DNA from: Rhodospirillum centenum SW
Lineage (GTDB): Bacteria; Pseudomonadota; Alphaproteobacteria; Azospirillales; Azospirillaceae
Direction of reading: 5' to 3'
Assembly: GCF_000016185.1 (NCBI RefSeq)
Contig: NC_011420.2
Span: forward strand, 640,501-704,500
DNA length: 64,000 bases
In this document: positions 19,779-22,769 of the stretch, one piece after another
How positions within the stretch are numbered: position 1 is the first letter of the stretch
Layout of the letters: each line of letters begins with the position of its first letter
Notes under the pieces: model-generated
Databases searched by the model: none
What the model saw: the letters and a program-made list of their open reading frames with translations, nothing else
What the model was told of the DNA's origin: nothing
Translations under genes and position numbers: made by a program

Positions 19779-20191
19779 CGGGGGGCTCCGTAGGTGGCGA
19801 GAACGACGGGGGCGTCCGGACGGGGCGCGTCACGCCGCGGGCTGTGCGCCGGCGCCGCGGCCCGGCCGGGCTTGCGCGCCGGGACCGGGACCGTGACGGT
19901 CGCCAGCAGCTCGGGCTGCTTCTCCGGAAGGGCGTCCAGGGAGACGATCTGTTCAGCGCGGGTGGGTTGCAGCAGCAGGTGCTGGGCCACCAGGGCCTCC
20001 AGCCGCGTCGGATCGTTGAGATAGGCCCATTCCGCCCGCAGCACCTGGATCGCCTCCTGCTCGGCGACGATCTGGCGGTTCAGCGAGGAGAGCTTCTCCG
20101 CCTGTTCCTGCACCCGGTAGCTGGTCTGGTACAGGATCACGCTGGCCAGCGAGGCGAGGGCGATCCAGACGATGGTGGATTTGCCGATCAT
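19775..20191 (-). CDS. ftsL: Cell division protein FtsL
   Basis: FtsL is a small bitopic protein that forms a coiled-coil complex with FtsB and FtsQ at the septum. The 138-residue product has a very short N-terminus, one membrane span (about residues 7-21) and a heptad-rich periplasmic helix ([18 protein letters not shown]) to about 60, then the conserved [11 protein letters not shown] element and a Pro/Ala-rich tail. It overlaps rsmH upstream and ftsI downstream by four bases each. The tail past residue 95 is longer than in many relatives. Confidence 0.93.
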
Positions 20192-21177
20192 GCGGCGTCT
20201 CCCAGGCGACGGGCGGGGGCCGAGGTGCGTTCGGCGCTGCGCAGCCGCGCCGAACGGGCGCGGGGATTGGCGGCCAGTTCCGCCGGCGCGGGCGTGACGC
20301 CCGACCGGGCGATCAGGCGGAAGGTCGGCGCCGGGGCGTCGGCCGGGGCCGGCAGGTGGCGCGACGGAGCGGGGGCTGCGGCGGAACGGCTGCGCAGGAA
20401 CTCCTTCACCACCCGGTCTTCCAGCGAATGGAAGGTGACCACGGCCAGCCGGCCGCCGGGGGCCAGCAGCCGCTCGGCCGCGGCCAGACCACGCTCCAGC
20501 TCGCCCAGCTCGTCGTTCACGGCGATGCGCAGCGCCTGGAAGGTGCGGGTGGCGGGATCGATGCCGTCCTTCGACTTCGGCACGACGGAGCGCACGATCT
20601 CGGCAAGGTCCAGGGTGCGGGTGATGGGAGCCTCGCGCCGGCGCGCCACGATGGCGCGGGCGACGCGGCGGGAGTGCCGCTCCTCCCCATAGCGCCAGAC
20701 GATGTCGGCGATCTCCGCCTCGTCCCGCTCGTTGACGATGTCGGCGGCCGTCGTCCCATGCGATCCCATCCGCATGTCGAGCGGACCGTCGAAGCGGAAG
20801 GAGAAGCCGCGTGACGGATCGTCGATCTGGGGGGAGGAGACCCCGATGTCCAGCGCGATGCCGTCCACGCGGGTGATGCCGTGCGCAGCCAGCAGCGACT
20901 CCATGCAGCCGAAGGTGCCGTCAAGGACGGTCAGCCGGCCGGGATGCCGGGCTGCCAGCGCATGGCCGCGGGCCACCGCGGCGGGGTCGCGGTCGATCGC
21001 CCAGACGGTGCAGGCGGCCGAGGCCAGCAGGGCGGCGGTGTAGCCGCCGGCGCCGAAGGTCCCGTCCACCAGAACAGCACCGTCGCGGGGGGCGAGGGCG
21101 TCCACCACCTCGTCGCGCAGGACGGGGATGTGCAGCGACGGGGCGTCCACGGCCCCCGGGGTCGGGCCGGCCGTCAT
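20188..21177 (-). CDS. rsmH: 16S rRNA m4C1402 methyltransferase RsmH (MraW)
   Basis: RsmH uses S-adenosylmethionine to methylate N4 of C1402 in 16S rRNA. The 329-residue protein has [13 protein letters not shown] near 16-28, the SAM loop [15 protein letters not shown] near 38-52, [18 protein letters not shown] near 110-127, and a C-terminal [15 protein letters not shown] motif, all specific to this family. Start at the ATG at 21177 overlaps the mraZ stop by four bases. Position directly after mraZ is the standard dcw opening. Confidence 0.96.
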
Positions 21178-21665
21178 GACGCCCCCCTGGCCAGGGCCGA
21201 GGTGCGGGCGAGCACGGTGGACAGCGAGATGTTGTTGGCGCGGGCCACGTCGCGGCTCTGCGCCTCGTGCGCCGCGAAGGCCGCCGGGTCCCAGAGCTGG
21301 AAGGTCTTGCGCCGGCCGACGAAGGAGATGGACTCGCCGATCCCGGCGAACTCCAGGTAGGGCTCGGGGATGATGATGCGGCCCTCGGGGTCGATCTGAA
21401 GCCGCACGGAACCGCCGAACACCGTCGTCTCGATGGTGTCGCGCAGGTCCTCCGGCATGTCGGGATTGTCGAGCGCGAGGGAGAGCTGCTCCAGGAAGTC
21501 GATGCTGCACGCATCCAGCGCGTTGGCCTGGAGCGAGCGGAAGACGATCAGTTCCACCGGCCCGCCGCCCGTCACATGCCCCAAGGATGTGCGGAAGGGT
21601 GCGGGCACCGAGACCCGGCCCTTCTTGTCAACCTTGTTGACGTATGTGGACAGGAACAGCGCCAT
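21174..21665 (-). CDS. mraZ: Transcriptional regulator MraZ
   Basis: MraZ is a DNA-binding protein with two SpoVT/AbrB-like swapped-hairpin domains that controls the dcw operon. The 163-residue protein begins [25 protein letters not shown], the first AbrB motif, and repeats the DPEGRIIIP element near 105-113, where the second domain carries the D-x-x-G-R signature. It is first in the operon and overlaps rsmH. A large set of TGGG boxes starts about 85 bases upstream of its ATG and fits autoregulation, which is established for MraZ in other bacteria. Confidence 0.95.
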
Positions 21666-21751
21666 CGCCCCCCACGATCCGGCACCTCCCCGATGCCGAC
21701 CCTGTTTCGGAAATCCCCTCCTCGACCGCCGCCCGCCCCGCTGGCGCGGAG

Positions 21752-21898
21752 TGGGTCGGAATGGGCCGACCTTCCCGATTTATGGGTAGGATTGGGATAC
21801 CATGGGACGTCATGGGCGTCAATGGGACGGCAGAGTAAAGTGCCTGATCGGCCAAGAATTTTCGGGGGGCTGTGGGTAGGTCTGGGGAATTCCTGGGG
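21752..21898 (+). promoter_or_regulatory. Extended array of MraZ-type TGGG boxes
   Basis: Ten TGGG tetramers are seen on the plus strand. Starts are 21752, 21762, 21783, 21793, 21803, 21813, 21823, then 21873, 21883 and 21894. Five in a row have exact ten-base spacing, and the two earlier copies also differ by ten. Known MraZ operators consist of about three or four TGGG-N repeats with five-base spacers, that is, the same period. The array covers the predicted mraZ promoter. Here the boxes read TGGG on the strand opposite to mraZ. Confidence 0.75.
21794..21822 (-). promoter_or_regulatory. Predicted dcw (mraZ) promoter inside the TGGG array
   Basis: On the minus strand TTGACG (21822-21817) is followed after exactly 17 bases by TATCCC (21799-21794). 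The -35 box is nearly ideal; the -10 box is acceptable for a GC-rich genome. Transcription would start near 21787, giving a leader of about 120 bases. Four TGGG boxes overlap or touch these elements, so bound MraZ would compete with RNA polymerase. Confidence 0.6.
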
Positions 21899-22142
21899 AT
21901 AAAACGGGAGAACTGCGGGAACCATTCAGGAAAGCTCACGGATCCGTCGGCGAAGACGGGTTCCGTTCATCTTTTGTTCCTTTCGAAAACAACAATAATT
22001 CGGCGGCATCTCTTTGAGCCGCTTGTCACCCCTTGGGGAAGCGTGGGGGTGATTCTTCCGGCCCCTCAGGCGGGGCGGGACGGGGCCGGCCGGACCGGCA
22101 GCCGTGTCACCCGGGAGTCATGCCGGAACCCCGCGTCGCAGG

Positions 22143-22158
22143 CCACAAGATATTGTGG
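22143..22158. repeat. Perfect inverted repeat CCACAA-N4-TTGTGG
   Basis: Six-base arms flank GATA, and a further ATTGTGG copy lies at 22183-22189. The symmetry resembles a dimeric regulator site. It sits about 180 bases after the rnpB 3' end and about 330 bases upstream of the predicted mraZ promoter. No regulator can be named. Confidence 0.4.
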
Positions 22159-22312
22159 CGCTGCCCCGATTTTTCTGAGGGTATTGTGGGCGGACTTTGA
22201 ACCTCAGCCTGCGCGTGCCCTGCGCCCTGGAAGCCCCTGCCCGCGAAGGGGCTGTGCGGGTGCTTCCGGCAACCGTTTTCGCGGGCCCGAAAGGGGCAAA
22301 TATCCGCAAGCA

Positions 22313-22330
22313 TTCCGCAGTCCTGCGGAA
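22313..22330 (-). terminator. Possible rnpB terminator hairpin
   Basis: TTCCGCAG and CTGCGGAA form an exact palindrome immediately after the rnpB 3' end on the minus strand. The following bases (TGCTTGCGGATATTTG) are only moderately T-rich, so termination efficiency is uncertain. Confidence 0.4.
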
Positions 22331-22337
22331 AATCAAG

Positions 22338-22769
<432 letters not shown>

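Follow-up and report, generated by a model that had tools for sequence, protein, structure and literature searches.

MraZ is a ring-shaped, AbrB-like protein, and a 2014 study by Eraso et al. is said to have placed its Escherichia coli operator at Pmra (mraZ1p). The E. coli sequence carries three sense-strand TGGG tetramers at -43, -33 and -23. According to the excerpts of the literature used here, MraZ elsewhere binds rows of boxes with a ten-base period and represses its own operon (PMC7761207, PMC8475190, PMC5282649). For Burkholderia cenocepacia, the excerpted report describes electrophoretic mobility shift assays in which MraZ bound a PmraBc fragment with four 7-base repeats separated by 3-base spacers, at a site overlapping the transcription start (PMC7761207), and for Mollicutes the site (AAAGTGKN3)3 and an octameric MraZ are given (PMC5282649). 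Here we analysed a window of 64,000 nucleotides from Rhodospirillum centenum SW (assembly GCF_000016185.1, contig NC_011420.2, positions 640,501 to 704,500), in which a row of TGGG boxes precedes mraZ, at the head of the dcw (division and cell wall) operon. From sequence comparison, we put at roughly 80% the probability that this array is the operator through which MraZ represses its own operon, superimposed on the dcw promoter in an inverted arrangement that typifies Alphaproteobacteria and with a few additional boxes here.

As the first-pass annotation of this DNA had stated, ten TGGG tetramers are present on the forward strand, seven in a proximal group (21752, 21762, 21783, 21793, 21803, 21813 and 21823) and three in a distal group (21873, 21883 and 21894). 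The proximal copies follow a ten-base period with one skipped position (spacings of 10, 21, 10, 10, 10 and 10), the distal ones are spaced by 10 and 11, and one-base shifts of the register occur where a position is skipped and again within the distal group. Read on the strand of mraZ, the proximal boxes are CCCA at -161, -151, -141, -131, -121, -100 and -90 from the ATG, and the distal ones are CCCA at -232, -221 and -211. Scored with a profile derived from the class-wide comparison described below, the six boxes from 21762 to 21826 reached 6.5 to 9.8 and the box at 21752 reached 2.8. The gene, the proximal boxes and the predicted promoter elements are as follows.

21174 to 21665, reverse strand: mraZ, 163 amino acids, the presumed repressor binding the array (Pfam PF02381, 58.6 bits against a cut-off of 23).
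21752 to 21755, forward strand: extra TGGG (CCCA -90), weak, perhaps a seventh box, score 2.8; matching CCCA in loci L014, L016 and L017.
21762 to 21765, forward strand: extra TGGG box (CCCA -100) in the predicted 5' untranslated region (UTR), score 6.5; matching position in Aerophototrophica (L006) and Niveispirillum.
21783 to 21786, forward strand: TGGG box B5 (CCCA -121), core box adjoining the predicted start at approximately 21787, score 9.4.
21793 to 21796, forward strand: TGGG box B4 (CCCA -131), core box overlapping the predicted -10, score 9.2.
21794 to 21802, reverse strand: predicted extended -10 element TGGTATCCC, overlapping B4 and 17 bp from the -35.
21803 to 21806, forward strand: TGGG box B3 (CCCA -141), core box, score 9.8.
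21813 to 21816, forward strand: TGGG box B2 (CCCA -151), core box, score 6.7.
21817 to 21822, reverse strand: predicted -35 element TTGACG of the dcw promoter, between B1 and B2.
21823 to 21826, forward strand: TGGG box B1 (CCCA -161), directly upstream of the -35, score 9.5.

The sequence features that mark an MraZ operator are found at this place, namely TGGG direct repeats on a ten-base period, a location directly in front of mraZ, at what the conserved TTGA and TGnTA offsets predict to be the first dcw promoter, and an mraZ gene in cis. The sense-strand orientation, which is usual and not defining, is not found, as the window boxes are antisense to mraZ. The exact pattern TGGG-N6-TGGG-N6-TGGG gave three overlapping matches in the window against 0.02 expected; across the whole genome it occurred in the mraZ array and in one GC-rich repeat (C1:556729) and nowhere else, and the reversed-pattern control gave one match. 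An origin by chance or composition, that is, from short G-runs in GC-rich DNA, could appeal to TGGG being a short word, but the longest in-phase chain in the 420 bp upstream of mraZ is seven, compared with a maximum of four in 5000 dinucleotide shuffles, and the arrangement is conserved over 94 families. Chance therefore has a negligible probability as an account of the array, being refuted for the seven proximal boxes and not for the distal three.

For comparison, a protein search of the genome collection provided 47 named loci, 46 of them with upstream sequence. In addition, TIGR00242 matched MraZ in 97 of 114 alphaproteobacterial genomes (113 families), with none of the 114 above the model cut-off; after two unusable loci were dropped, the class sample consisted of 95 genomes from 94 families, the window included. 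The rows left out were L025, which lacks sequence upstream, L110, which has 169 bases at the end of a contig, and L161, a match that is partial and whose start is unclear. Non-alphaproteobacterial Pseudomonadota were represented by 30 genomes out of 52 with a match, the gene start of one locus (L188) being unreliably placed.

The first-pass annotation had proposed aligning the upstream region across related species, and the absence from close relatives that would have spoken against its proposal was not observed. The nearest named relatives in the protein search were Aerophototrophica and Oleisolibacter, and an antisense array stands at the matching place in both of these, in Nitrospirillum, in Niveispirillum and in others. 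Four boxes are near-constant among the close relatives, while the -161 box is common to the window, Nitrospirillum and locus L013, the -100 and -90 boxes are common to the window and Niveispirillum, and the -100 box also occurs in L006. Judged from this alignment, the seven boxes of the window seem to represent an old array in its most complete form.

Antisense CCCA chains of at least three boxes were present upstream of mraZ in 72 of the 95 alphaproteobacterial genomes, and sense TGGG chains of that length in none of the 95, window included. Pairs of CCCA at 10 bp numbered 197 in these genomes, compared with 0 to 3 for each distance from 4 to 9 and from 11 to 19. A sense-strand array was likewise considered and rejected for the region near mraZ; five Nitrospirillum loci have sense chains of at least three, but these lie at least 500 bp upstream. 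Among the 30 non-alphaproteobacterial genomes, on the other hand, sense-strand chains of at least two were found in 22 and of at least three in four, and antisense chains of at least three in two, both more than 300 bp upstream. Because antisense chains dominate the Alphaproteobacteria, while the other Pseudomonadota sampled, with fewer boxes, and E. coli use the sense strand, the reversed box orientation is a feature of Alphaproteobacteria as a class and not of this locus. The boxes do read opposite to mraZ, as had been noted, yet this is the rule in the class and no local oddity. The description of the array as unusually large held for exact CCCA copies, the window chain of seven being the longest in the 95 genomes (next six and six, mode four); it is weaker with relaxed NCCA boxes, for which the window again has seven compared with maxima of eight in the 95 genomes and nine in two Inquilinus loci of the named set.

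A gapless alignment was seeded with the box positions and TGnTAT, leaving positions upstream of B2 free, and it converged on ttcCCaTTGAC.CCCATataaTCCCATGaTATCCCATnatatCCCA. The conserved core can be written TTGAC-n-CCCAT-nnnn-TCCCATGnTATCCCAT-nnnnn-CCCA, in which four boxes are interleaved with a likely -35 and a likely extended -10. In 91 of the 95 genomes, which formed the training set, and in all 46 named loci, it scored higher than any of 475 shuffles; 45 of these loci were outside training, since L028 and L109 of the class sample come from a single contig. TTGA, which was not seeded, was found at -6 or -7 before B2 in 57 of the 91 aligned genomes, other offsets having 0 to 3 each except for 9 and 6 at one box period off, and TGnTA, which was seeded, was found at +14 from B2 in 58 of them. 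An unseeded word count over the 95 genomes also returned TATCCCAT in 56 and CCATTGAC in 34, compared with 2.2 and 2.0 in shuffles, and CATGATAT in 27. Taken together, the core likely consists of a -35, then 17 to 18 bases, then an extended -10.

The same alignment bears on whether the G-tracts act as a G-quadruplex instead of protein boxes. The motif (G3N1-7)3G3 is present on the antisense strand of 40 of the 91 cores, the upstream region of the window contains (G3+N1-7)3G3+ twice, and a quadruplex has been reported downstream of the Staphylococcus aureus mraZ promoter, according to the excerpted account (PMC11796246). On the other hand, 51 of the 91 cores do not fit the motif; the CCC-CCC spacing is 10 in 196 cases and 8, 9 or 11 in only 2, 6 and 2, although a quadruplex tolerates varied loops; and CCC is followed by A in 297 of 341 instances, a base that a quadruplex would not need. 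The rigid ten-base spacing, the conserved base beside CCC and the fixed TTGA offset therefore favour protein binding, and we consider a quadruplex function quite improbable.

Specificity was assessed by scanning the 114 whole alphaproteobacterial genomes with the strict core pattern CCCAN6CCCATNNTATCCCA. This gave 44 places in 43 genomes, whereas the reversed pattern gave one match across the 114. Forty-three of the places lie 69 to 264 bp upstream of an mraZ found with the hidden Markov model (HMM), on its sense strand, and the last, in genome G109, lies directly upstream of an open reading frame (ORF) that TIGR00242 had missed and that matches the Pfam MraZ family:

L206, 1193 to 1624 (G109): MraZ missed by TIGR00242, with the putative core promoter-operator upstream (Pfam, 56.5 bits).

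As strict-core matches occur only upstream of mraZ, the core marks mraZ and no other gene at this stringency. With the core scoring above shuffles in both sets and its strict form confined to mraZ, the earlier proposal that the boxes form an MraZ operator appears well supported by comparison.

Transcription start sites predicted from the core were compared with published ones. In family f19 (L115, L192, L193 and L194), a strong terminator-like hairpin begins 94 to 129 bases ahead of mraZ, and none of the other loci among the 15 scanned has one as strong; the excerpted report gives a long leader containing a strong terminator as typical of Rhodobacteraceae (PMC5089854). We took f19 to be Rhodobacteraceae because of this strong leader terminator. 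Under that assignment, the predicted starts of approximately -266 in L115 and -263 in L194 agree with the -268 mapped in Rhodobacter sphaeroides, as excerpted from the same report (PMC5089854). As a side observation, the sequence TGATCAGTGGCAGCAGATCA is common to all four f19 loci, and their hairpin resembles that described for the UpsM leader. For family f115 (L195 to L199), predicted starts of -168 to -180 stand beside -170 in Sinorhizobium meliloti, with the limit that the identity of f115 as Rhizobiaceae could not be established.

Several observations weigh against an operator-promoter of this design. Within f19, the cores of L192 and L193 are weak (scores of 13.6 and 12.0) and have no matching start site; the identity of this family is itself one that we infer, and weaker terminator-like hairpins occur in other scanned families. 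The published start of Caulobacter crescentus, outside the start-site comparison, gives a 5' UTR of at most 70 nucleotides. Furthermore, the predicted -10, TATCCC, is distant from TATAAT and would count as poor in E. coli, and a consensus scan of 21600 to 22350 returned no sigma-70 promoter with a scanner that requires T at the last -10 position; the -10 of S. meliloti sigma-70 promoters is described as poorly conserved in the excerpted source (PMC3616915). Four of the 95 genomes have no core above shuffles, chains are shorter than three in 23 of the 95, and 71 of the 114 genomes lack the strict pattern.

Given the layout of the locus, we infer MraZ binding, repression, promoter activity and any effect of the extra boxes along the following lines. 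An MraZ ring would bind the row with one helical turn per box, along a single face of the DNA. The core boxes B2 to B5 would alternate with the -35 (TTGACG) and the extended -10, and a bound ring might thus block RNA polymerase, by which MraZ would repress its own operon. As the four core boxes span the region from the predicted -35 to the start site, occlusion of RNA polymerase would be the simplest mechanism. The extra boxes, B1 on the upstream side and, in the 5' leader, the -100 box and perhaps the -90 box, would lengthen the row, and they could seat a second ring or tighten the first. The graded or cooperative repression suggested by the first-pass annotation is likewise hypothetical, and the excerpted reports contain no dose response to box number.

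The distal group looks like background or another kind of site, and the count of ten boxes given by the first-pass annotation could not be maintained.

21873 to 21897, forward strand: three distal TGGG (CCCA -211, -221 and -232), probably not MraZ boxes, overlapping a DnaA-box-like sequence.

Their scores of 4.8, 3.2 and 2.8 do not rise above background, unrelated sites in the region scoring 4.1 and 4.0. They are probably not MraZ boxes, and the ten would in effect be six or seven. If all ten nevertheless made up one extended operator, the distal triplet would take a further ring and the two groups would cooperate, e.g., by looping. The nearest distal copy is exactly 50 bp from B1 and in phase, and there are CCCA copies at the matching place in L006 and variants in L007 and L013. 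However, all three distal copies lack the T found after CCCA in approximately 74% of core boxes, their scores are chance-like, their spacing is 10 and 11, and the aligned stretch of L006 holds TATCCACA and TGTGGATAA. Because the scores of the distal three are those of background and the copies line up with DnaA-like sites of relatives, a single operator of ten boxes was rejected, and the extended arrangement seems unlikely.

We lean instead, without proof, to the triplet being a decayed or low-affinity DnaA-binding site upstream of the promoter, which might tie replication initiation to dcw transcription; this is tentative and a little short of an even chance. The DnaA-box consensus is TTATCCACA. 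Exact copies on either strand within 500 bp upstream of mraZ were found in 19 of the 46 named loci (L006, L008 to L012, L014 to L018, L020, L024, L031, L032, L037, L039, L042 and L044; 0.3 in shuffles) and in 7 of the 95 class genomes (0.8 in shuffles). As with the window triplet, the exact copy lies 35 to 96 bp upstream of B2 in 14 of these 19 loci (52 to 96 bp) and in five of the seven genomes. At the matching place, L006 has an inverted pair of DnaA-box-like sites, CTATCCACACGCTGTGGATAA, that is, CTATCCACAC-GC-TGTGGATAA, and TTATCCCCA of the window at 21894 to 21902 is one change from the consensus. Against this, the upstream region of the window contains neither an exact TTATCCACA nor TTWTNCACA, its right-hand half-site being lost and only TTATCCCCA and CTACCCACA being kept. 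The named loci with an exact box belong to few genera, the looser TTWTNCACA was found in 12 of the 95 class genomes compared with 5.6 in shuffles, and the 13 exact copies in this genome are scattered, with none near mraZ.

Further upstream, a LexA-type site accompanies the array. The consensus of the LexA (SOS) box in Alphaproteobacteria is GAAC-N7-GAAC, and the region contains a match.

21965 to 21979, reverse strand: alphaproteobacterial SOS (LexA-type) box GAACAAAAGATGAAC, matching GAAC-N7-GAAC, 314 bp upstream of mraZ and separate from the array.

Within 500 bases upstream of mraZ, GAACN7GAAC occurred in 41 of the 95 alphaproteobacterial genomes (30 in the orientation of the window and 11 in the opposite one), compared with approximately one in shuffles, and the spacer controls N6 and N8 occurred in four and one of the 95. 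In this genome, recA and lexA have a LexA-type box 143 and 76 bp ahead of the starts of their HMM matches, and a stricter LexA pattern, with one more A that is absent from the mraZ box, was found at 28 places genome-wide compared with five for the reversed control. The box beside mraZ hints that DNA damage and the division operon may be connected. An SOS-controlled small protein was also considered and set aside, as neither side of the box had a conserved small ORF in the window and 13 named loci, the 14 sequences with an SOS box that were inspected. The CtrA-type motif TTAAN7TTAA was present upstream of mraZ in 8 of the 95 class genomes (3.8 in shuffles) and 9 of the 46 named loci (1.0 in shuffles); a CtrA motif at S. 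meliloti mraZ is reported in the excerpted literature (PMC3616915, PMC4414408). GANTC was not enriched upstream of mraZ, with 62 of 95 (77.5 in shuffles) and 39 of 46 (39.6 in shuffles).

The flanks of the intergenic region are formed by the dcw genes and by an RNA gene.

20188 to 21177, reverse strand: rsmH (mraW), the next dcw gene (Pfam PF01795, MraW methylase family, 325.9 bits).
22337 to 22766, reverse strand: RNase P RNA gene, at the far end of the intergenic region (Rfam RF00010, 280.6 bits).

The start of rsmH overlaps the mraZ stop (ATGA), and the mraZ product matched the solved MraZ chains 9qlr, 9sx6, 9qlg and 1n0e in phmmer with E values of 3e-5 to 5e-5. An Rfam scan of ten loci returned RNase P alone, in four of the ten. 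In 27 of the 95 alphaproteobacterial genomes, the word CCGGCTTA from the RNase P RNA 3' end lies less than 400 bases from mraZ, and in each of them it is on the mraZ sense strand.

A broader scenario is conceivable, if doubtful. Early Alphaproteobacteria may have inverted the MraZ operator into the promoter, and the region may have gained LexA boxes and, in several lineages, DnaA boxes, such that MraZ feedback, DNA damage and replication initiation would act on one division promoter; in the window, the enlarged row would seat two rings and give steeper feedback. MraZ is widespread, yet its role is known from few species. A class-wide fixed operator-promoter layout with reversed boxes points to the site and mode of action to be expected of MraZ in Alphaproteobacteria, a class with several models of division and the cell cycle. 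The core layout amounts to a precise prediction of the dcw start site, and the natural variation in box number, with as many as seven exact copies, could be used to study how a repressor that forms a ring counts boxes.

No description of reversed MraZ boxes or of this core in Alphaproteobacteria was found in the literature searched, which did not include RegPrecise or Eraso 2014, and priority is not claimed. The systems described, as far as the excerpts of the cited reports go, compare with the window as follows. The S. aureus mraZ promoter also has repeated G-tracts, which are read there as a quadruplex (PMC11796246), whereas protein boxes are favoured here. The dcw 5' leader of R. sphaeroides, with its small RNA UpsM, likewise concerns an alphaproteobacterial mraZ promoter, and its mapped start fits the L115 and L194 cores; it differs in having a long leader with a terminator, and the excerpts contain no mention of an MraZ box for it (PMC5089854). 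The Mollicutes site shares direct repeats with a ten-base period but has three repeats and another flank, and PmraBc of B. cenocepacia shares the period, while the window differs in its antisense TGGG reaching upstream past the -35. Pmra of E. coli resembles the window in that TGGG recurs every ten bases immediately before mraZ, at the first promoter of the dcw cluster; its three sense boxes lie downstream of the -10 (PMC7761207), whereas the six or seven antisense boxes of the window are interleaved with the predicted -35 and -10.
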